Positions 17,615 through 44,966 of a DNA stretch of 64,000 nt are shown one piece after another. The position numbers and the translations under genes are program-made. The notes below the pieces were generated by a model that saw nothing but the letters and a program-made list of their open reading frames with translations, was not told where the DNA came from and searched no databases. Numbering within the stretch: position 1 is the first letter of the stretch; each line of letters opens with the position of its first letter. Source of the DNA: Hemerocallis citrina (Eukaryota > Streptophyta > Magnoliopsida > Asparagales > Asphodelaceae); contig CM030368.1 of the NCBI GenBank assembly GCA_017893485.1, positions 110,553,549 through 110,617,548 of the forward strand, given 5' to 3'.

Positions 17615-17791
17615 TTATGCAGCAACAATATTAAAGCAAAGCTGCTTCAGGGCTTCAAAGCTTATGTCATCCAGAGATGCCGAAGCCAACCGCTCAGAAA
17701 ATTCAGTCTCAGAGGCTCTCTCAAATTCAGATTTTGTGTTGTAGCCGAAATAGCCCCCACACTCCCAAGTTGAAAGGTGGCTCCCAGTTGC
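17615..17791 (-). CDS. GGP: GGP-like exon 7 (stop codon)
   Basis: Acceptor TTTGCTGCAG, then 58 codons and TAA. Contains TWECGGYF and SLDDISFEALKQLC, the C-terminal block of GGP proteins (WE...GH/GYF, then the AEVSLSEERF-like helix). It is separated from exon 6 by 9.1 kb of inserted retrotransposons. Confidence 0.85.
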   Translation of the reverse strand, partial: ATGSHLSTWECGGYFGYNTKSEFERASETEFSERLASASLDDISFEALKQLCFNIVAA

Positions 17792-26700: not shown

Positions 26701-29700
26701 GAGCAATAATTCAACACAATAATTTTTTTAATCAAAAAATAACATATTTTCTCATTATTCTCAAGACCTATATATAGGCTCAAAAAAAATCAAAAACAAA
26801 TCTAAAATAAATCTCTCAAATAAACTACATATTGCTAAATCTCAAAATACAACAAAACAGATTTGATGTCCTCATCAAGAACATTCATCAAACAATTGAT
26901 AAATAATAAAAAATGTAAGCCCATTACTTGCACAGTTTACCTGAGGAAACAGGTACATCTTCGTTGCACTATTAGTGACCAACAGATTGAACACAGTATT
27001 GTGTTCGTGCTGTAAACAGGAGCAAATTTCTGCTACAACTCCAACCAGCAATTCCAAGTTGAAGCTTGTGAACAGTAATGCTTTCAGAGGATAATCTACA
27101 AACTCAGATATGTTTACCCCAACATCATCCAGGGAGCCATGTATAGAGACAGTTGGAAGAAGTTCAACAGGTAACGGGTTTGCAAAGTAAGCAGCCTGTA
27201 CGAGAAAAAAACTATCTATTATAAACATTGTTGCAAACTTTTTTAGCTCAAACTGAAGGCAATTCCTAGAATAAAGTTCAGTGCAAAAATATCACACTTT
27301 TACATCATTTTTAAACTAAAGATCCATAAGAAGAAATACAAAAGAAACAAGACATTACACAAGAAACACAATAACTCCAGCCGCATCAAAAAACTGAAAG
27401 ATACATATATCAGTTAGAAGAACCTTCAAAAGTAACCTTACATAAAATCTAGCATTATAATTTTCATTATTATAATATTCAAGTAAGATACTTTTCATCA
27501 GCAGGACAACACATAATCAAGTGCTACATTTAGCATTGTGTGACATCGGAGCCATTTGTGATTGTCATACTTATGCCCATGAGGATTAGATGTCACAGAG
27601 GAGAGTGTAACTCACTAATAAGCAAAAGAAACAAAAGTAATCATAATAATGATTGAAAAACAACAGCAATGGAGAACAATCATGCTATGCCAATGCTGCA
27701 AAGCAATTTACTTTCAATCATGGTTAGATGATGAGGATACATATCTATACATAATAAACTTGTGTATGCACGATAAATCACATGGAGTGATCTATTAAGG
27801 GGTGGTTTGGTTCGCAGTAAATGAGCTGCAAGAAATCAAATCATAGGGGCAGCAGTGTTTTGGTTGGATTTTTGTTGTATTACTGTAGCTACACTAATGC
27901 ACAATTGTGTATTTTTTGCCCGTTTTCATTTTTGAATTTTTGGCTCGGAAAACACTCGCGCAACACTGTTCATGCATATTTAATTCATTTATTTCTCTCA
28001 CTCCCTCTCTCTCCACTTCTCAACTTTCTTTTGTCTTCCTTTTCATTTACAAAACCATATTTAAACTATTAACCCCTCCTGGCCAATGTGAGACTAAAGT
28101 CCCCACATGAAACTGCCGACACCCAGGCAGTGATTTGATTTCTTTAATTACAAATTAGCCCCTAATTAATTTGCATAATTAAGATTAAGCTCTATTTAAT
28201 TGAGATTAAGCCCAAATTAAGATCAAGTCTTAATTAAGATTAAGCTATAATTAGTTTAAGAATAAGACCTAATTAATTTCGGATTAAGGCCTAATTGTTA
28301 ATTTCGTTTGTTTTTGTTTCGGTTTTTTTTTTTTGTTTAATTTGATTAAGATCAATTTAGTTAATTCAAATCAATTTAATTAAGATTAAGCGGCTGTTAA
28401 TTGGGTTTCGGTTTTTTTTGTTTAATTTAATTAAGATAAATTTAGTTTAATTAGTTTAAACCCTATTTAGTTGAGATTAATTTCAAATAAACAAAAAGTT
28501 TAAAAGTATTTTAAATTACTTTCGCTACAGTGTTCTTACAATTCAAACAAAGCTAATCTTTCATGTAAAACTATTTCTGCTACAGTACATCTTACATCCA
28601 ACCAAAGTTATTTCAAGAAATCAAATCCAAAGATTTACTTTCACTACAGTGTTTCTCCATCTCTTGATTTCTTTTACAACCAACCAAACCACCCCTAAAT
28701 GTACTAACTACTAGAGCCAGCTGAATTGATGTGACCAGTGTTCTAAAAATCAGCCTAGGCGGCACCTAGGCTCTAGGCACCCTTCCAACGACACGCATAG
28801 GGCCTAGGCATTTTAGAAAATCGGGTTATGGGTCTAGGCAGGGTTTAAGCGGGTCTAGGCTGATCTAAATCGGGTCTAGGCAGGTCTAGGCGGTCTAGAT
28901 CGCTTAGAACCCAAACCACTTTTTTAACTTATTGTTTTTTGAGTTTTCTCTTACTGTATATCCATGATATGCTAAGCAGAGTAGCAGGCTATCCATTGGA
29001 TTTTAAAGTGATTATGTTTAATTTACAAATGATAATCACCTTTTTTATGTGTTTTTCTCTTATTGTATATATCGGATTTTTTAAGTAAAGTATCACACTA
29101 TCCATTAAGGATAAAAAGTGATTATATTTAAATTACAAATGATAATTACCTTTTTGCGTGTATGTTTTCTCTTATTGTAGATACCGGATTTGTTAAGCAG
29201 AGTAACACACTATCCATTATTCTGAGGATTTTAATGAATAAATTAGCAGTACCTTCCACCATAAGTGCACATCTTTATTAATTTTCTTTAAATTAATATA
29301 TTTTCCAAGTGACAAAGAATGCTCGTAAACAGTGCATTTTTTTCAATTCAGACAGACAAACTCAATTGTACATTTATACTTATATTATATGCCATCTTTA
29401 TAAATTTTGGTCATCAAACATTCAAACTATAATTTGCTGAAGCTGACAGAGACTAATATTCTTATATTCATATTCCCAAGCAGGCAATGTTAATGCATTA
29501 GCAATCCTTAAAAGGAGTTGTTATTTTGGAAGGATATTCTTTATGTTCACCGATACAATAATACACTGATTCGACTTTGTAAAGCTCTCTTGCAATTATA
29601 AGAAGAAAATTCAAGGGTATGAACGGATAGCAATAAAGTGTAAGAATGGGCAACAACGAAACAAAACCAAAAGATCGATAAATTAATAAATAATCAAATA

Positions 29701-32700
29701 AATAAATAAAACCGCCTAACGCCTAGCCGCTTAAGCCCTGATTACAAGGTCTAGGCGCTAGGCCCCCATCGGCCGCCCGACTACCGCCTAACGACTTTTA
29801 GAACATTGAATGTGACCTTGCTTAAAACTACTCATTCCCTTCATGCAATCACTATCAACTCTACTAATTCAGATATAAGAAACTCAGAATTACTGAATAC
29901 ATATTCCTCAACAGAGAACATGGTGTTAGCTTATTATAAATACTGTCAATTGTTAAAGAGACCTTATAAATATTGTTTAATTTATGTAAAAGAGAACAAA
30001 ATTGAAAACTTAATTCCGTTTTCCATACAGATAATCAGTATTTTTCAACCATTTCTGACTAATGTCCATATCTGATTCGAATTAGAATATATTTTCAGCA
30101 AATTTGGTAATATATTCAGATATACACACGAAGAAAGAACATTAGAATATGCTAACACCCATAATCGCTCCTACTGCACCCAAACTGATAGCATAATTAA
30201 ATTTGTAGTAGAAGTCATTTGTTATTGCAAAATGATGGATGTGACTGCCATAACTAAAGTAACATACTCAGAATTAAGTTTTACCTGGAAATAAACATTA
30301 TCTGAATGTACAGTAGAACCATGATGGTCAAAGAAGAGGCGGAAGGAGCAACTATTAATTTCAGTTGCCAACAGTGCAGCCAAATTTAGCATTTTCCTGT
30401 CCATCAACTGTGACCTCTCACTGACATCATACGGAACCAAAAAGATGTGACCATACTCGACAGGATTCACCTTAAATCACGAGTAAAATAGATCAGAGTA
30501 AATCATAGTTTGAATGTTTACAAGTGAAAGAAATATTTAGCATGTTACTTACATTAACCATTACCAGCATGCCGTCTTTAGGAAGAGTAGTTGAAGGAAT
30601 AAACTGAGAACATTCATTTTCTCCATTTGTAACACAAAAGAAAAGATTTTCTCTGAGTGTTTTCATGTAACTTGGTTTAAAAGGCCCTGATGGCTGGACA
30701 GCGCCCTTTTCAGATTCTTTAAGGACGTTTGCATTCCATTTCTCATTCAACTGAGCAATAAACTTCTTTTTACCTCTAATGATCTGCACATACATCAAAT
30801 ATTTGAGGGTAAATAATGACTACAGTAGAAACACAATATTTCTCGAATGAAGACACCATTAAATATGGAGCAAAAAGAACCTGAATTTCACACGTTGTGA
30901 CATCATAGTTGAGCTGACCCCTCCAGGAACAATCTTCCCACTGCAAAATGGCAACAATAGACTACAAATATAATCCAAAACAAAAGTGCAACAAAAGAGT
31001 ATGTGATTTACATACTTGAGAAAGGAGGAGAGCGTCCAGTAAGCTTTGCTCCTCAATAGTGGCATTATTGCCCTTGAACGTACTACCAAACTGGTAAAGA
31101 GGTGTCTTAATACCTGCAAAATACACGGTATATATTGCAATGAATACTTAAGAGAAACTGTTTTCATAATAAATCGTGATCAACAGATGAGTATTGGATC
31201 AAGATCAAAGGCAAAATTATACTGGAAATTGAACATATTATTCAGTAGTAAAACTTTGCCTAGAGGCTTATCATGAGATGTTAAGACAGTCGACCAAAAG
31301 AATAATTTAATTTTAATCAATGAGCCGGTTGTACTAGAAAAGAATAAGCAATGTATCGACGTAAAAATACCTCAGAAACTGAGGCATTAGGCATGCAGAA
31401 AATATAGGGTTGGCAACCAGGTCGAGTCAACCCGTGACCCGCCGGGGCCGGCTCGCATTTGACCCGAACCATTTGACCCGGTCCGGGTTCGGGTCAAACC
31501 CTCATACCTAAACGGATGGGACCGGGTCGAGAAAATAGCGAAAAAAACCTGCTCAAGGAAAATCCGAGCATAGAACATAAAGTTTGTAAAACATGTAGTA
31601 GAAGTTACAAATGGAAGAAGGATGAGTGGACGGGTACAATTAGTCGCCACATTACAAATGTACACCCCGAACTAGTACAAGACAAATAAACTCAACAAAA
31701 AATCAGCCCTAGGACCGGGGAAGTAGATAATCATAGCTATGATCCCGAAATTGTTCGTCGGGAAATAGCTAAATTAGTTATAATTTATTAAGAAAAAAAT
31801 TACCATTTTTCTATTCCGATAGTAGGAACCTAGAGACCTTTAACCAAAATGCATTAAATCTACATTTCAATAGAATTTCTAGAAACACACTCAAGGCCGA
31901 TTGTTTTAAACTTTATTCCGAAATGAGACACTTTAATTGCACTTCTGCATTCTTTAACTTGTAGAATATCATTAACGGCCAACTGTTGAACAGGTTGTAA
32001 AGATATTCCGATGATGGGTACAACTTGTCATTGGATCAATAGTGATTGACTCATTCTAAAGAGAATCATATTACATGCCGCTTTGCCGTACCTCCATAGT
32101 GGTATGGTTAGCACAAAACATATTTTAGAAGTTTGTGATTTATTTCATAGTCGCTAAAAAAAATCGATTAGTTTTGATAATGCCTCCAACAACACTAATT
32201 CGATTAATACATTACAACAACAGTTCCTCCATATCTTAAAATTTTTCATGTTAGATGTGTACATATTTTAAATTTCTGTATATAAGATGCATTAAAAGTA
32301 GTTGATCCATTTGTAAATGCAATTAAAATTTGTGTATATTTCATTGCTTTGAGCAGTACTATACTGCAACAAATTAAAGAATGGTGTAATCTGAAGAGAC
32401 TACATTTTTAAAAAAATTCTAGAGATGTTAAACACCGATGAAATTCTACTTTCGACTTACTAAATGTTGTTACTCAACAAAAAACAGTTATAAATAACTT
32501 TTGTATTGCAAAAAACATGAAAAATTTTCAAATGACTCCCGAACATGATATTTTTTGAAAGTTTGTTAAAAATTTTAGAACCTTTTAAAACTGCAACTCT
32601 GAAATTTTTCAAATTTTATGATTCCACTTCTAGTAGTATTTTTATTTCAATAATTACTATGATGTAATTTTTTTGAGAAATGCTTTCGGACTCTCACATT

Positions 32701-34444
32701 AGCCATATTTCCCGCTTATGATAAATTTTTGAAATATTTTAATCATCCTCCTATATTGTATTATATTGCTACTGTAATGGATCTCGTGTCAAATTAGGAG
32801 GTCCAAAGAATTTGATTGAAATATTTTTTACTTTACTTGAAGTAGACTCTCAATATAAATGTAATGATTATTTAGAACAATTTGAGTTGATATTGAATAA
32901 CTTGTATGATTTTTATGATGGAACTTATGCATCTAATGGTACATCACGCCAAACTAGTATATCAACTTCTTCTTCTTCTAGAGGTAAGGGTAAGATTACA
33001 TTAGAAGATGTCAGACTTGCTCGTATTCAATCTAAAAAACCTAGAACTAATGCACATAATGAATTAAACTGGTATAATTCACAAAGAAGTGAGAGTTCTA
33101 GTTCTAAGATTGAAGTGTTACAATGGTGGAAAGAACATTAAACATTTTTTCCAATTCTTTCACATATGGCTAGAGATCTACTAACCTCTCATGTGCCTAC
33201 AGTTGCATCAGAAAGTATTTTTTTTCAAGCAGCAAAATTTTAACAAATTATAGAAATTGCTTGAAGCCTGATTCATTGGAGATACTTGTGTGCACCAAAG
33301 ATTGGATGAAAGCTGAAAACAGGACTTGAAAGAAAAGCAGTAAACACCTCAACAAATGGAAGCAACTGAATTGACGATCAACAAGCTGAGTATGAAATTT
33401 AGGACAATGAGATCCTAGGTTTAGGTTAAGTAGAGGTGCAAGACAATAGTCCAATGCCCTCTCTTCAATCTAACTCTAAGCTATCTCCAACTCTAAATTA
33501 TCTCCTTAAACATGTAATTCAATAAATTTGTATAATTTTTTAGTTTTTATTACATGTATTTGTATGTAATTTGATTGTTGTAAAAACTTATTCCAAGTTG
33601 AAATGAATAATATCTACAATTTTGTTTCATTCTTAAACATGTTCTACATTTATCAAATTTTTTTGGAGTTAAAGTGTTAAACAAAAAAAAAAAATTTAAA
33701 ATACCGGGCCAACCCGGACCAGCCCGGGTCGGGTTAGAATCGTAAGGGTTCGCGGATCGGTTTGGGTCGAGGTATTATGTAGGGTGATAACACAATGTGT
33801 TCTAAATTTATATATTATGTTATCACCCTACATAATTCTGTAGGGTGATAACACAATATATAAATTTATGGTGTCTGCTGGAAAAAATCGAATAATAGAG
33901 AAAAATAGCCAACTTGTACTATGCCAATGTGAACGAAACCATGTTCTTGCTACTGAAACTTTACAGATATACATGTTATGATGGGTCTGTACGATGATTT
34001 TACAATACCGGTGTGTGAATCTATTTTTAAAACATATATAGATTATTCTTAGGATGATTTTTTAAAAAGGTACAAGTCAAATACACATATATTGGGAAGC
34101 AAGCAGCCTAACATAAATTTAGCAAAATGTCAGTTATACATTACGGTCTGTATATAAGAGGACCAAGATAATTGAAGTGAAAAAACACTAGTAAACAGTA
34201 ATTAACTCTTCATCCTTCAGAAGTTAGTAATACTTTGCCACTAAAATAAATATAACAAGAACGTACTAACATCCTGTAAAATAGTGTAGCTTGAAATAAA
34301 TGTCTTCAAAAGAACTGAACACAAATAACTAAGAAAGCAGAACAAACCTCTGGGAGGCATCTGATGACACTTGGTCTGCTCCGAACTAGCATTTGTCTTC
34401 ACAAAACAATACTCACCACCTTCAAGCTGCTTGACGGACACCAT
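17615..34444 (-). CDS. GGP: GDP-L-galactose phosphorylase-like protein (VTC2 family), HIT motif degenerate
   Basis: Seven exons (34444-34348, 31113-31016, 30940-30881, 30783-30553, 30470-30285, 27195-26941, 17791-17615) join in frame through GT-AG introns to 367 codons. Known members catalyse the first committed step of plant ascorbate synthesis, turning GDP-L-galactose and phosphate into L-galactose 1-phosphate and GDP. Family landmarks are seen in order: PLYQFG (about residue 37), WEDCSWRGQLNYDVTTCE (about 66), KKFIAQLNEKWN (about 90), NPVEYGHIFLVP (about 164), FRLFFD (about 205), YFQAAYFANPLPVELLP (about 222), YLFPQ (309) and TWECGGYF (about 317). The HxHxQ nucleotidyl-transfer motif, HLHFQ in Arabidopsis VTC2 as I recall it, reads NVYFQ, so both histidines are gone. 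VTC2 is about 440 residues; this copy is shorter at both ends and before TWECGG. It has no frameshift or stop. It is probably expressed, but its activity is doubtful. A small exon hidden in the 9.1-kb intron 6 is possible. Confidence 0.85.
18321..19841 (-). mobile_element. RT4 LTR A, carrying a Helitron
   Basis: 1,521 bp, of which 458 bp are Helitron H3; without it 1,063 bp, against 1,060 for LTR B. Forward ends are TAATGTCAAC and GTCCTCATCA. The GC-rich part (18,690-19,060) matches 26,180-26,550 and gives non-conserved open frames on both strands. Confidence 0.85.
19285..19742 (+). mobile_element. Helitron H3 (458 bp, non-autonomous)
   Basis: Begins TCTATATCATAAAAT and ends CAACGGGCAAACCTAG, inserted between A and T as Helitrons do. 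A perfect 7-bp hairpin (ACGTGCC-GTA-GGCACGT, 19,708-19,724) sits 18 bases from the CTAG end. The empty site is seen twice, in LTR B and in LTR C, which settles both ends. It has no coding capacity. Related to H4 at 45,058-45,649. Confidence 0.9.
19842..20641 (-). mobile_element. RT4 internal copy A (integrase tail only)
   Basis: Matches 21,959-22,113 plus 23,866-24,505 of the other internal copy. It holds the integrase C-terminal coding remnant (20,499-20,236) and a tail with a GTCGAGTCATCTGAGAGAA purine-rich tract next to LTR A. It is cut at 20,641 by hAT-1. Confidence 0.75.
20236..20499 (-). pseudogene. Integrase C-terminal fragment, RT4 copy A
   Basis: About 87 residues with FNYKLIADTRRKFKTLDVGD and then VMVRIRPERFPAGS, the classic Ty3/gypsy integrase C-terminal (GPY/F-like) block. 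The catalytic core is absent. The frame decays after KIMHKIK through a small indel relative to copy B. Confidence 0.75.
20642..21632. mobile_element. hAT-1, non-autonomous (991 bp), no target duplication
   Basis: Ends CACTATTCTAAAAATCGG and CGACTTTTAGAACAATG, with GC-rich subterminal repeats of the GCGCCTAGGCGCTAGGC type at both ends. Same family as 22,203-23,291 (inverted) and 28,736-29,808. Its left flank is RT4 internal sequence and its right flank is the middle of an LTR, so about 1.2 kb of interior and 0.7 kb of LTR are missing here. Confidence 0.75.
21633..21958 (-). mobile_element. RT4 LTR C fragment (middle LTR)
   Basis: The last 326 bases (forward) of the RT4 LTR, from GTAATTTGGGGATTAG to CCTCGTCA, followed by the same tract as LTR A. 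It preserves the empty site of Helitron H3 (CAAAATAAGTCCAAAAC). Confidence 0.8.
22114..23857. mobile_element. hAT-4, non-autonomous, 8-bp duplication ATGAATAC
   Basis: Ends CAAGGTTTTAAAT and ATTTAAAACAGTG, flanked by ATGAATAC at 22,106-22,113 and 23,858-23,865. The uninterrupted target is seen at about 19,990 in RT4 copy A. It is 1,744 bp including the inserted hAT-2, about 650 bp without it. Subterminal TTTCGG/CCGATA motifs repeat. No transposase. Confidence 0.88.
22203..23291. mobile_element. hAT-2, non-autonomous (1,089 bp), nested in hAT-4
   Basis: Ends CAGTGTTCTAAAAGTCG and ATTTTTAGAACAGTG, with flanks GGAAAATG (22,195-22,202) and AGAAAATG (23,292-23,299), an 8-bp duplication with one mismatch. 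It is the inverted counterpart of hAT-1. It contains a short (ACT)n run near 23,010. Confidence 0.85.
24044..24367 (-). pseudogene. Integrase C-terminal fragment, RT4 copy B
   Basis: 107 residues: FNYKLIADARRKFKTLDVGD, then VMVRIRPEW, KKLNIRAASPFKIMHKIN and NAYVVDLPEGFGISKTFNI. These are the tail of Ty3/gypsy integrase that follows the catalytic core. Nothing upstream in the element encodes RT, RNase H or the integrase core. Confidence 0.8.
24560..25490 (-). pseudogene. Ty3/gypsy gag remnant, RT4 copy B
   Basis: Read on the minus strand, pieces of gag appear in order: a region with FHFEGRMELQAYLDWI (about 25,305), then YVDKFDDFLIRYNALGK (about 24,990) and GLRADLRNDL. Last comes an intact CCHC zinc knuckle CYKCKGYGHVAGNC at 24,626-24,585. 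The knuckle is in a different frame from the preceding block, and stops separate the first pieces, so the gene is dead. The order and motifs are those of a plant gypsy capsid-nucleocapsid. Confidence 0.75.
25803..25814 (-). other. RT4 primer binding site
   Basis: TGGTATCAGAGC on the minus strand, three bases inside LTR B. It shows that LTR B is the 5' LTR. Confidence 0.88.
25818..26877 (-). mobile_element. RT4 LTR B (5' LTR), 1,060 bp
   Basis: Forward ends TGATATAAAC and GTCCTCATCA. The duplication AGAAC follows at 26,878-26,882. It retains the empty H3 site. Its GC-rich part (26,180-26,550) is a leader region, not a gene. Confidence 0.88.
26941..27195 (-). CDS. GGP: GGP-like exon 6
   Basis: Acceptor CGTACAG, donor GTAAAC, 85 codons. 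Starts AAYFANPLPVELLP and ends KMYLFPQ, matching the post-HIT domain (YPLKALLF, FNLLVTNS) of the family. Confidence 0.88.
27799..28695. mobile_element. Tourist/Harbinger-like element in intron 5 (897 bp)
   Basis: Inverted ends GGGGTGGTTTGGTT and AACCAAACCACCCC with TAA on both sides (27,796-27,798 and 28,696-28,698), the PIF/Harbinger pattern. The inside is AT-rich with repeated TTAATTAAGATTAAG motifs and no transposase, so it is non-autonomous. Confidence 0.85.
28736..29808. mobile_element. hAT-3, non-autonomous, intron 5 (1,073 bp)
   Basis: Ends CAGTGTTCTAAAAATC and GACTTTTAGAACATTG, with flanks GATGTGAC (28,728-28,735) and AATGTGAC (29,809-29,816), 7 of 8 identical. Same subterminal CTAGGCGG repeats as hAT-1 and hAT-2. 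No coding sequence. Confidence 0.85.
30285..30470 (-). CDS. GGP: GGP-like exon 5 (site of the HIT motif)
   Basis: Sixty-two codons from VNPVEYGHIFLVP to DNVYFQ. The NPVEYGH block and the FRL...FQ spacing align without gaps to VTC2, so the loss of both motif histidines (N and Y instead) is a real substitution and not a misread exon edge. Confidence 0.9.
30553..30783 (-). CDS. GGP: GGP-like exon 4
   Basis: Acceptor TGTGCAG, donor GTAAGT, 77 codons. Contains KKFIAQLNEKWN and the QPSGPFKPSYM block corresponding to the QPFDGNKFNFTK region of the family. Confidence 0.88.
30881..30940 (-). CDS. GGP: GGP-like exon 3
   Basis: Sixty bases between TTTTGCAG and GTTCTT encode WEDCSWRGQLNYDVTTCEIQ. This aligns with the WEDRFQRGLFRYDVTACE-type block of VTC2. 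Confidence 0.88.
31016..31113 (-). CDS. GGP: GGP-like exon 2
   Basis: Acceptor TTTTGCAG, donor GTATGT. The 98 bases plus the phase-1 base give 33 codons with GIKTPLYQFG at the start and LLDALLLSQ at the end. The PLY motif matches the family N-terminal region. Confidence 0.85.
31404..33773 (+). mobile_element. Decayed Ac-like hAT element in intron 1
   Basis: The left edge carries TAGGGTTGGCAACC and GGTCGAGTCAACCCG-type subterminal sequence, and the right edge has GGGCCAACCCGGACC...GGGTCGGGTT, as in many hAT families. Transposase remnants read on the plus strand between them. The right terminus is blurred by a palindrome, and no clear 8-bp duplication was found, so the borders are approximate. 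Confidence 0.55.
32812..33243 (+). pseudogene. hAT transposase C-terminal fragment
   Basis: About 143 codons with one internal TAA (33,139-33,141). The motifs EVLQWWKEH, then FFPILSHMARDLLTSHVPTV and ASES are the hAT dimerisation (hATC) domain signature, preceded by the weakly conserved NNLYDFY region. The N-terminal zinc finger and catalytic RNase-H-like core are not recognisable upstream. It lies sense on the plus strand, opposite to the host gene, inside its intron 1. Confidence 0.8.
33774..33836. repeat. Palindrome with 19-bp perfect arms
   Basis: ATTATGTAGGGTGATAACA (33,774-33,792) is the exact inverse of 33,818-33,836, around a 25-base loop. Half of the unit is repeated again directly after it (33,841 onward). 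It could form a hairpin in the intron-1 region. It may be a tiny foldback element or the remnant of an hAT end. Confidence 0.85.
34348..34444 (-). CDS. GGP: GGP-like exon 1 (start codon)
   Basis: Opens ATGGTGTCCGTCAAGCAG, encodes MVSVKQLEGG... and ends CCCAGAG at a GTTTGT donor, leaving phase 1. The ATG is the first in this frame after the leader uORF stop, 67 bases upstream. Confidence 0.8.
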
Positions 34445-34511: not shown

Positions 34512-34688
34512 TCAAACTTCAACACCACCACCAGCAAGGTATGTGAGATCCGAAGGATGCCCACCAGCCGAAGGTAGGGCACCCCGACCACCGTGGAAAG
34601 AAGGAGACGATAGCAGAAACTTAGGAAAACCCTGCAAACATTCTCTTCCCCTTCTAATTATAGTACGGGTTTCTTTCCTTAAAGCCGT
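34512..34688 (-). CDS. Non-AUG upstream ORF in the GGP-like leader (58 codons)
   Basis: On the minus strand a frame opens at ACG (34,688-34,686, context TTCAACCACGGCT), runs 58 codons without any ATG and stops at TGA (34,514-34,512), 67 bases before the main ATG. An in-frame TAG lies eight codons before the ACG. The peptide ends in a Gly-rich block with SFHGGRGALPSAGGHPSDL and then TYLAGGGVEV. From established knowledge, GGP/VTC2 genes carry a conserved uORF of about 60-65 residues that starts on ACG and represses translation when ascorbate is high. Position, length, start codon and lack of ATG all fit. That the peptide itself is the conserved one is inference. Confidence 0.65.
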   Translation of the reverse strand, partial: TALRKETRTIIRRGRECLQGFPKFLLSSPSFHGGRGALPSAGGHPSDLTYLAGGGVEV

Positions 34689-35174
34689 GGTTGAATTATG
34701 AAGCCAGCCCTAACTGGACCAGCAATTTCTAAACAGTATCCACAAATCCTTAAAAGATTTTATATACTAAACCAACAACTCCTGGATCACCAAGATTGAG
34801 TATTGATATCTACACAAGTAATCAAACTATCATCAACAATTGCTTTCGAATATAAACAATTATACAATTTTCTCTCTTTTACTAAAAGGTAATATAACCC
34901 TAGTTTTTCCAGAAAATTAAAATCAGGGTTTTAAAGAATCAAACTTTTCTGTGATGATTAAGATATAATTCCTCATAATCAGATCTTTTCTAAACAAAGA
35001 TGAAATGAATAATCCCCAATTTAACCAAAATTACATGCCATAATCCAAATCCCAAAACCTAATCACCAGAAGAAGGGGGAAAAAGGTAGATTCAGGAACA
35101 AAAAAACCAGCGATCTAACTATGGAGACTTAATCAATTGACTGAGAAACCCTACCCTAATTTGATAGCGATTAC

Positions 35175-35262: not shown

Positions 35263-35289
35263 GATGATGAGCGATGGATGGCTGGTGGG

Positions 35290-40374: not shown

Positions 40375-43300
40375 ATGTTAAGAAATACCCGTTTGAGTGA
40401 TATTAAGAAACAAGCAAGATCTGCATCCCCATATCATGTAGTATCTAATAATCAAGAAGGTATCCTCCCAAAACTATTTTATAAATTAAAATCATTGTCA
40501 ATGATGTTCTAATTAATATGCACCTTTCAACAGTTCATCATGGTAGACATAATTCGACGACAGTTCATCCGGCAAGGAGACGCCATAACTGTGCTAGAAA
40601 TTATGTTGACATAAACATGATGCCAGTACACATGTTACCAGAACCCAAATTCTGCGAAAAATGTGGTGCTAAGTTGTTTTCATCTGAAACAAAAGAGATA
40701 TGTTGTAGGAATGGAAAAATCTCACTGCCGCAACTTACAATAATGCCTATCGAATTGAAGATGTTATATACTAATCAGAGTGAGGAGGGGAAGCATTTCA
40801 GACATAACATTCGGACATACAATCATATGTTTGCCTTCACTTCGATGGTAGTTCATTACGATGCAAGTCTCGCCAATGGCTGTGACGGAATCTATACTTT
40901 TAGAGCCCAAGGGGCGATATACCATAGGATAGGAAGTCTACTACCTATTCAACGCCCTAATTGGATAGGTAGTCTAAAACCTGCTGGACCCCCTAGGCCA
41001 AGATATCTACAATTGTACATATATGATACTGAGCACGAAATTGAAAATAGAATGAGGGAAAATACTGGGATGCGGACACACATAGTTGAAAAACTGAAGA
41101 CGATCTTAAATCACCATTTCGTGCATCAATTTAGGCGAATGGCTGTGAGAGAGGACTTACCAAATTGTAGATTGTTGCTTAAAGACCAATCCTTGGGAGG
41201 TCACCAGTACAATCTTCCTACAGCATCTCAGGTTGCAGCAATTATAGTCGGAGGTGAAGATCTAACAAATGTTGGACCCCGGGAGACTATTGTGGAAACA
41301 ATGGAAGGCAACTTACAGCTAATTCCAGACACGGTCGGTTATTATGATCCTCTCTAGTACCCACTTTTACTTCCTTATGGGAACTATGGATGGGATGTCA
41401 ACACCCATTGTTTAAATGGACATCAAGTTACCTACCGGGAATTTTATTCGTATATGCTTCAGGTAGTGTGCTAATATGAACTATATATATTTCTCTTTCA
41501 TACTATACTGATAAATAATGTTTTTGTTACAATTACATATTAGAGCAAATGATACATCAATACTACTTCGTGCCGGCAGATTACTACAACAATTTATTGT
41601 TGACACTTAAGTGAAAATTGAGATGCAAAGGTTACGATTTTTGCGGGCCAATCAAAAAACTATTAGAGCGGAGTTGTACCAAGGGTTACAAGATTTATTC
41701 AATGCGGGAGTACGAAATGGAAGTATGTAATTAGTAGATTGAAAAACCTTATTATTTTTTCCTTTTCCGCCTGTATTTTACAGTGAATGGGAAGCTAATA
41801 GAAAAATACTTTTTCACTGTATTTATAGGTACAGCCGGAAGAAAAATTATACTTCCCTCTTCGTATGTTGGTAGCCCGAGAGACATGTATAATCGGTATC
41901 AAGATGCCATGGCTTTAGTTCAGAGGTATGGAAAACCAGATCTATTTATTACAATGACATGTAATCCATCATGGGATGAAATAACAAATGAATTGTTCTT
42001 GGGACAAAACCCTCAAGATAGGCCTGACTTGACAGCAAGGGTTTTCAAAGCGAAGCTAGAAGAACTAAAAAAAGATATCTATACCAGCAAAGTTTTAGGT
42101 TATGTTGCAGCTCATGTCCATGTAGTCGAGTTCCAAAAACGTGGATTGCCCCATGTTCATATGTTGGTCATTCTGAACGTACAAGACAAGCTGAATAATC
42201 CTGACGAGTACGACCACATTGTACGGGCAGAGATTCCAGACCCAAATGTTGAACCTGAACTATATGAGATAGTTAAAAAGCATATGCTACATGGACCATG
42301 TGGTATAGTGAAACCAAATTCTCCTTGCATGAGGGAAAACAAGTGCAAAAAGGGATATCCGCTCCAATTTGTGGAGCACACAGTACAAGGAGATGATTTG
42401 TATCCATTATATAGAAGATGTGATAATGGGATTAGTATAGAGAAACACGGCATCTCCTTGGATAATCGATGGGTGGTTCCATATAATCCTTGGCTTTTGA
42501 AAAAATATAATTGTCATATCAATGTTGAAATATGCTCTAGTATCACGGCCGTGAAGTATTTATACAAGTACGTATACAAGGGACCAGACCGAATCTCTTT
42601 TCAGATACGTAGATAAACCGATCAAAATGATGAGATCTCACAGTTTCTAGATGCCATTAAGTTTCCAGTGCACAAAATATATCCAAGTGTGATAGCTCTT
42701 CATATACATCTTCCAAATATGCAGTAATTGACATATAATGCCGATCAACTGCTCGATGATGTTCTCAATGATGTGCAAACTTCAAAGACAATGTTGACTG
42801 AGTTTTTTCAAAAGAATTCAGAAGATTCTAAAGCAAGAAATTTATTATATCGAGAATTTCCAGAAAAATATTGGTGGGTATCTGGAGATAAAAAATGGCA
42901 AAAGAGAGCAACTACACAACGAGCTATCGGTAGACTTTACACGGTTCCGCCAAATGAAGGAGACCGATATTATTTGCGCATCCTACTGAATCATGTTAGG
43001 GGACCAGTCTCATTTGATGATCTTCTTACAGTAGATGGGGTTCCCTGCTCCACTTTTAAGGAATCAGCTGAAAAGATGGGGTTCTTAGAAAATGACAACA
43101 GCGTACGAGAATGTTTAATAGAAGCAGCAAGTACACATATGCCATCAGCGCTCCAGAGATTGTTTGCTACAGTTTTGTTGTATTGTCAACTTACTGGTGT
43201 GCTGTAGTTGTGGACTGAGTTCCACCCATATATGATGGAAGATTACTCTTCAACATGTACCGTGAATGTGAATTCAAGCATGAATCGTCTATTACGTGAT

Positions 43301-44966
43301 CTGAACAGCATACTTCAACAGTATGATAAATGTAATGCAGATTATGGTCTCCCTGTATCCACATTTGATGATTTTACAAGTGGATCTACACGAAAAATGA
43401 TTGAAGATGAGAGATCCATTATTGTTACGGATGATGATTTAAGTTGTATAAATTTGTTGAATTCGGGCCAGAAGCATGCTTTTGATGTGATCATCGAAGC
43501 TGTTAATTTGAAAAAAGAGATGGTATTCTTCATTGACGGTCCAGGTGGTACTGGAAGCCTTTTTTGTATAGAGCGGTGTTGTCATACCTTAGAAAAGAAG
43601 GACATATTGTATTAGCAACAGCATCATCCGGAATCGCAGCCACGATATTACCAGGGGGAAAAACTGCTCACTCTAGGTTCAAAATTCCTATTAAAATTGG
43701 GCCTAAATCAACTTGCTATATTAGTAAACAGGACGACACGGCCGATCTCTTACGAAGTAGTAGTGTTATACTTTGGGACGAGGCAACAATGGTACATCGG
43801 TATGCTTTTGAAGCATTTGACATAACCTTAAGAGATTTGACAGAAAAGGACATCCCTTTTGGAGGTAAAATTGTTATACTTGGAGGTGATTTTAGACAAG
43901 TGCTACCAGTAGTACAGAATGGTACAAAATCGCAAACTGTAGATGCATGTATTGTCAAGTCTGTAATTTGGGAAAGTGTAAATGTTATCCATCTTATAGA
44001 AAATATGCGATCAAGAACTGATCCTAACTTCATAAGCATTTTGAAAGATATCGGAGACGGGGCAGCGACTACATATGAAAATGAAATGGTAAGAATTCCG
44101 GATGAAATGGTTATACCATGGACAGGTGACGATACCATAACTCATTTAGTCAACACTATTTATCCAAATCTTTGTGTGAATGTGAATGACAAAAGCTACA
44201 TGGTGGAAAGAGCTATAATGGCACCAACTAATGAGTCCGTGGATAGTATAAACAACACTACCGTCAATACTTTTCCAGGTGATTGAAAATCTAAATTAGT
44301 TTTAATCTCTTCTATGTAAAGGCTTTGACTATTTATAAAAATAAATAAAGATTTTCCTATGTATCCATCTCTACTAACATAAATTTAAACTATACCATTG
44401 TCAGGTGATGAGAAAGTATATTATTCTTTCGACAGCGTAGAGGATGATGAGAGGAATCTATACCAACAAGAATTTTTGAATGAGATTTCTCCAGGAGGAT
44501 TGCCACCACATAAGCTAATTTTGAAATACGGGGCACCAGACTTCTACGAAATATTGACCCAAAAGCAGGTCTTTGCAACGGGACAAGATTATTGTGTCGA
44601 GGTTTTTATCAGTACTTGATCGATGCAGAAATTGTTACTGGAATTTCAGCAGGAACACGAGTTTTCCTTCCTAGAATACCACTAAAACCTTCAGAAAGCA
44701 TAAGCTTGCCGTTCAAACTAATTAGAAAACAATTTCCTGTGCGTCTGTGTTTCGCTATGACCATAAATAAAGCACAGGGACAAACTATACCGTTCGAGGG
44801 AATTTATTTAAAAGATCATATTTTCAGTCATGGGCAACTTTACGTGGCTTTGTCAAGAGGAGTTTCAATGAACTCCACCAAGATAGCTATTCGTGAAGGA
44901 AAATTGTCCAGACAAGATGGAACATACACAAGAAATGTTGTCTACAAAGAAGTGTTATTCAATTAG
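40375..44966 (+). pseudogene. Helitron RepHel (Rep endonuclease-helicase), inactivated
   Basis: Starts at ATG 40,375 (MLRNTRLSDIKKQARS), with an intron 40,460-40,533. Domains in order: Helitron-like N-terminus with FCEKCGAKLF (40,660); Rep with FITMTCNPSWDE (41,945), the HUH motif GLPHVHMLV (42,143-42,169) and the two-tyrosine motif VKYLYKYVYKG (42,551-42,583); Pif1-like SF1B helicase with Walker A (43,538), SSVILWDEATM (about 43,760), LGGDFRQVLPV (about 43,880), INKAQGQTI (44,764) and LYVALSRG (44,838). Breaks: stops at 41,355, 41,608, 42,614, 42,725 and 43,205; a one-base loss in Walker A (about 43,556) that replaces GK by GS and shifts frame; another frameshift near 44,535. A second intron lies at about 44,279-44,404 (TTTCCAG|GTGATT...CAG). 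No functional protein is expected. Confidence 0.88.

Follow-up and report, generated by a model that had tools for sequence, protein, structure and literature searches.

The window, a 64,000-nucleotide stretch of Hemerocallis citrina DNA, carries a GGP-like gene on its minus strand, whose seven intact exons with GT-AG introns extend from 34444 to 17615 and encode 367 residues without internal stops. The leader of this gene contains an upstream open reading frame (uORF), for which the first-pass annotation had given no strand and which is also located on the minus strand. Direct reading of the sequence bore out the frame described in that annotation: it starts with ACG, comprises 58 codons, has no in-frame ATG and ends 67 nt before the main ATG at 34444. 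The features of the locus are as follows:

35281..35287 (-): TATA-like box TATAAAT, common to both paralogues (by eye; alignment)
34730..35174 (-): possible leader intron with a GT at 35174, acceptor uncertain (by eye; donor conserved in alignment)
34700..34723 (-): AGPVRAGF block, read in a different frame from that of the uORF; many relatives of the window's class have it in frame (alignments)
34512..34688 (-): uORF, ACG to TGA, 58 codons (frame reading; 26, then 77 homologous peptides)
34686..34688 (-): ACG start codon, flanked by A at -3 and G at +4 (of the 66 peptides reaching the position, 64 have T and 2 have M)
34524..34595 (-): conserved peptide end HGGRGALPSAGGHPSDLTYLAGGG (alignment of 27 peptides)
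34348..34444 (-): GGP-like coding exon 1, ATG at 34444
31016..31113 (-): GGP-like coding exon 2
30881..30940 (-): GGP-like coding exon 3
30553..30783 (-): GGP-like coding exon 4
30285..30470 (-): GGP-like coding exon 5, whose 3' end is the degenerate HIT motif DNVYFQ (30285-30302)
26941..27195 (-): GGP-like coding exon 6
17615..17791 (-): GGP-like coding exon 7 with the stop, preceded by a 9.1-kb intron

The upstream frame and its surroundings

The stop codon TGA of the uORF occupies positions 34514-34512, and the nearest upstream in-frame stop is a TAG at 34712. The ACG lies in TCAACCACGG, which, to judge from its letters, would be a good context for a non-AUG start, and the encoded peptide, TALRKETRTIIRRGRECLQGFPKFLLSSPSFHGGRGALPSAGGHPSDLTYLAGGGVEV, has a Gly-rich C-terminus, HGGRGALPSAGGHPSDLTYLAGGGVEV. 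With 58 residues, it fits the conserved-peptide uORFs of GGP genes, for which excerpts of three papers give lengths of about 60-65 residues, and 47-60 in cereals (PMC10069634, PMC6878703, PMC12559526). Length was nevertheless rejected as evidence for a uORF: when the bases of the 826-nt leader were shuffled 2000 times, 141 of the shuffles produced an ACG frame no shorter than the observed one. Since chance frames of such length are not rare, the case rests on the peptide. Transcripts that splice past the frame by using the AG at 34632 had been raised as an objection; this AG exists (TTTGCAG), but there is no sign of such splicing at the peptide level, where homologous peptides continue straight across that point.

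An AUG in another frame is located inside the uORF (34639-34641, minus strand), where it encodes MFAGFS followed by a stop, and is common to the three paralogues. A ribosome bypassing the ACG would reach the AUG at 34641 ahead of the main ATG, and this internal AUG could also affect scanning. Just upstream of the ACG, the AGPVRAGF block is conserved, but neither the window nor its two paralogues nor the captured leader copies described below have it in the frame of the uORF. A sequencing error was rejected as the source of the frame change, because it is common to both paralogues and three captured copies; judged from peptide P0086, at the peptide level only, the change may go back to the loss of one base. 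On the plus strand of the window, a probable Helitron at 41738-44283 combines a Helitron-like N domain (41738-42613) with a PIF1 helicase (43537-44283).

Homologous peptides and their two classes

It had been proposed that the peptide is that of GGP uORFs, to be checked against GGP uORF peptides from other plants. Protein searches returned 26 homologous short peptides with the single peptide as query (26 candidates, E up to 1) and 77 with a nine-row alignment (among 782 candidates), which excludes non-conservation and, together with the peptide tree, supports the proposed identity. The best database matches are 90-91% identical at E values of 3e-27 and 8e-27; the peptide is therefore not due to chance. 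In all of the 66 peptides that reach the ACG position, it is occupied by Thr (64) or Met (2) followed by Ala, the remaining 11 of the 77 beginning too far downstream to display it. The pattern that defined the 66 peptides itself required this Ala, which is also invariant in the 27-row alignment.

Among the window and the 77 peptides, 38 read PSEGGSPSDLLFLAGGG and represent the canonical GGP class, 23, including the window, read PSAGGHP[SA]DLT[FY]LAGGG, and the remaining ones are variants. A peptide tree of 67 rows, built without the 11 of the 77 peptides that begin downstream of the start position, separates the two classes with a support of 100/97. Gossypium stocksii has one peptide of each class (P0091 and P0146). 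A third peptide type with PSEGGHPSDLTYLAGGG and a longer tail is found in P0107, P0108, P0109, P0113 and P0114; these five Glu-type peptides form a branch of their own on the side of the peptide tree that holds the window and are possibly an older form of the window's class.

A conserved ACG-started uORF of GGP (VTC2/VTC5) was reportedly described by Laing et al. in 2015. The window shares with the VTC2/VTC5 uORF the good-context ACG, the position in the leader of a GGP-family gene, the size of about 60 codons and the motif HGGRGALPS.GG.P.DL..LAGGG, whose core, HGGRGA and LAGGG, is retained in both classes. It differs by an Ala where the non-grass canonical class has Glu, by HP.DLT.L instead of SPSDLL.L (the H/S and DLT/DLL positions), in the N-terminal half of the peptide and by a main ORF without the nucleophile His. 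The grass GGP uORFs, as far as excerpts on wheat (PMC6878703) and rice (PMC12559526) describe them, likewise have an ACG start and Ala at the diagnostic position; in contrast to the window, they precede GGP genes with a described HIT motif (wheat, PMC6878703), which have been studied as enzymes. The probable grass canonical peptide P0145 reads PSAGGSPSDLLFL. The frame in the window, 67 nt before the ATG of the GGP-like gene, is thus a genuine GGP-family uORF with a conserved peptide, and it has been retained by a likely pseudoenzyme.

The GGP-like protein, its paralogues and sequence constraint

The nucleophile of GGP is the second His of the HxHxQ motif, H238 in Arabidopsis according to an excerpt of PMC10069634. 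In the window protein, this residue is replaced by Tyr (NVYFQ), which confirms the degenerate active site claimed for the paralogue and sets the protein apart from catalytic GGPs. A protein search with the GGP-like product yielded 84 matches at E values up to 0.001, the five best of which share 60-68% identity with it; among the plants named, Asparagus, Iris and Phoenix come closest. In the 85 rows formed by the window and these matches, the nucleophile column contains Y (49), F (12), C (5), G (5), I (4), H (3), P (1), L (1), D (1) and gaps (4), and the first His of the motif is retained in 44 rows. A nucleophile His is found in three rows, namely P0014 (pineapple), P0075 and P0078 (Taxus), the last of which is a canonical outgroup and falls among the canonical genes in the protein tree. 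Since His is found in only three of 85 rows, one of them canonical, the loss is widespread, with two exceptions within the clade. As far as the sequence tells, the GGP-like protein is likely a pseudoenzyme rather than a phosphorylase.

A tree of 32 proteins was built from 25 of the 84 database proteins and seven genomic loci, of which two were filled to only 30%. A branch with 100/100 support sets 27 GGP-like rows apart from the others. The 27 rows include magnoliid, eudicot and monocot ones, and the window adjoins its two paralogues. For the GalT/Apa-branch fold of catalytic GGP, a predicted structure of the relative P0001, rather than of the window protein, was compared with the PDB (mean pLDDT 78.7). 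It gave six matches at E values up to 0.001, all of which are the yeast Ap4A phosphorylase Apa2, at modest query TM scores of 0.46-0.52. A PDB sequence search with P0078 gave no match. The Pfam scan found no family for the six-exon window protein; it is uninformative, since it was also blank for P0001 and the canonical-type Taxus protein P0078, both of which are assigned to PF26216/PF26217 in the homologue list.

A search of the 3.78-Gb assembly with the uORF peptide gave ten matches, six of the window class and four canonical ones. Among the best candidates scored, full seven-exon GGP-like sets are present three times, once in the window and twice on C6 at loci 250 kb apart, and lone last-exon pieces twice, on C660 and C10. 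All three full genes found have Tyr at the nucleophile position and a uORF of 58 codons at 67 nt from the ATG, with an ACG flanked by A at -3 and G at +4. The other three window-class copies are leader fragments without a main ORF within a repeat. The flank of these copies has matches of 93-100% at the 40 places scored out of 1455 candidate ones; a transposon-like repeat thus seems to have taken up the leader. In each of the three (L004:1501-1665, L005:1501-1665 and L006:1501-1665), the uORF and part of the leader are embedded in a repeat that is bounded by long terminal inverted repeats, and in L005 the last 44 bp of the captured copy occur in both repeat arms.

The four canonical loci (C6:176.6M, C11:40.4M, C11:215.1M and C591) combine canonical-type uORFs with HLHFQ. 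In two canonical genes, the ACG lies in GTAATCACGG and precedes the stop by 75 and 74 codons. In C11:215.1M and C591, which are alike and may be haplotypes, the only in-frame ACG is just 30 codons from the stop; C591 additionally has an in-frame ATG 78 codons from the stop. A further GGP locus with an intact HLHFQ is found at C1:40.84M (L017, G000:C1:40836000-40845900), where no uORF motif is present in the sequence covered, up to 4.4 kb past the first matched exon. This locus and the two with an ACG only 30 codons out indicate that the uORF is not fixed in the GGP family. Further partial GGP matches are present on C1, C8 and C6.

Between the window and each C6 paralogue, the uORF has accumulated one nonsynonymous and three synonymous changes, a dN/dS of 0.12 based on only four changes; for the main ORF, the nonsynonymous/synonymous counts are 45.5/30.5 and 47.5/26.5, corresponding to dN/dS values of 0.39 and 0.47. 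Compared with C6b, the window differs at 5/177 sites of the uORF, 2/35 of the upstream AGP block, 8/67 of the spacer between the ORFs, 49/429 of the presumed leader intron and 30/151 of the promoter and presumed first leader exon. Across plants, identity amounts to 45/58 for the uORF versus 192/360 for the main protein (P0088, P0024) and to 42/56 versus 169/360 in Coptis; the uORF is thus more strongly conserved than the main protein encoded behind it. Both pairings are indirect: the P0088 peptide is assigned to the GGP-like protein P0024 outside the Hemerocallis genome, and the locus tags IFM89_017618 and IFM89_017612 of the Coptis peptide and protein tie a window-class uORF to a GGP-like main ORF. 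The values for P0107 and P0056 (35/56 and 162/355) were not used as a link between a uORF and a main ORF.

Proposed control of the GGP-like gene

Canonical GGP uORFs start with ACG and, according to excerpts of PMC11066809, PMC11066804 and PMC12559526, repress translation at high ascorbate. Given the homology of the peptide to these uORFs, the same brake should act on the GGP-like gene. We propose, with a probability of about 0.7, that the ACG-started conserved-peptide uORF represses the nucleophile-less paralogue, and more so at high ascorbate. Ribosomes initiating at the ACG would produce the 58-residue peptide, whose conserved end HGGRGALPSAGGHPSDLTYLAGGG would stall the ribosome near the uORF stop codon, and stalling would lower translation of the GGP-like protein, more strongly at high ascorbate. 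Translation of the uORF and stalling in the GGP-like leader are expected from the conserved peptide, and the ascorbate dependence is presumed by analogy with published work on canonical GGP, the window's peptide being a distinct subclass.

It is also conceivable, though unlikely, that the translated peptide represses the GGP-like ORF constitutively or in response to another signal, and that ascorbate sensing was lost or changed when the two classes diverged. The window class is indeed a distinct one, with several fixed motif positions, and it is not obvious why a protein that lacks the nucleophile should need product feedback; however, the core motif has been kept by both classes. The lost nucleophile and the captured leader copies, which sit in repeats without a main ORF, could likewise suggest that the uORF is a relic of duplication without present function. 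This is very improbable, since the peptide is more conserved than the main protein across plants and the uORF changes more slowly among the paralogues. Conservation at the peptide level would suit a trans-acting peptide as well as a cis brake, but wherever the context is known, repeat-captured copies apart, the uORF is located in a GGP-family leader, and its canonical relatives act in cis; there is hardly any probability left for a role in trans. One could speculate further, with a good deal of doubt, that ascorbate sets the amount of an old flowering-plant GGP pseudoenzyme via the retained uORF and that this protein is a regulator in a second, non-enzymatic feedback arm. Being non-catalytic, the protein might, for instance, serve GGP itself or the PAS/LOV inhibitor of GGP as a partner or decoy.

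GGP homologues of rice, Amborella and Physcomitrium that lack the HIT domain have been described (PMC12537018, in excerpt) and are likened to the window protein by description only; a term search of the main text of that paper gave no uORF. An early duplication of GGP in angiosperms (PMC7640755, in excerpt) is likened to the window's clade by description only as well, and genes named GGP-LIKE are mentioned for tomato and grape in an excerpt of PMC11066804. The literal peptide motif had no match in the paper search, and the open-licence papers searched yielded no description of a uORF for the HIT-less clade, most subscription papers lying outside the search. HIT-less GGP homologues and the canonical ACG uORF are thus already known, and the uORF on the HIT-less clade may, within the scope of that search, be new.

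Vitamin C in plants is controlled mainly at GGP, the uORF of which is already being targeted to raise the vitamin C content of crops. Should a clade of pseudoenzymes indeed constrain this uORF more tightly than the protein itself, control by the uORF has outlived catalysis. Sensing by the uORF would then be separable from the product of the enzyme, and the locus would point to an overlooked regulator whose leader is open to standard reporters.
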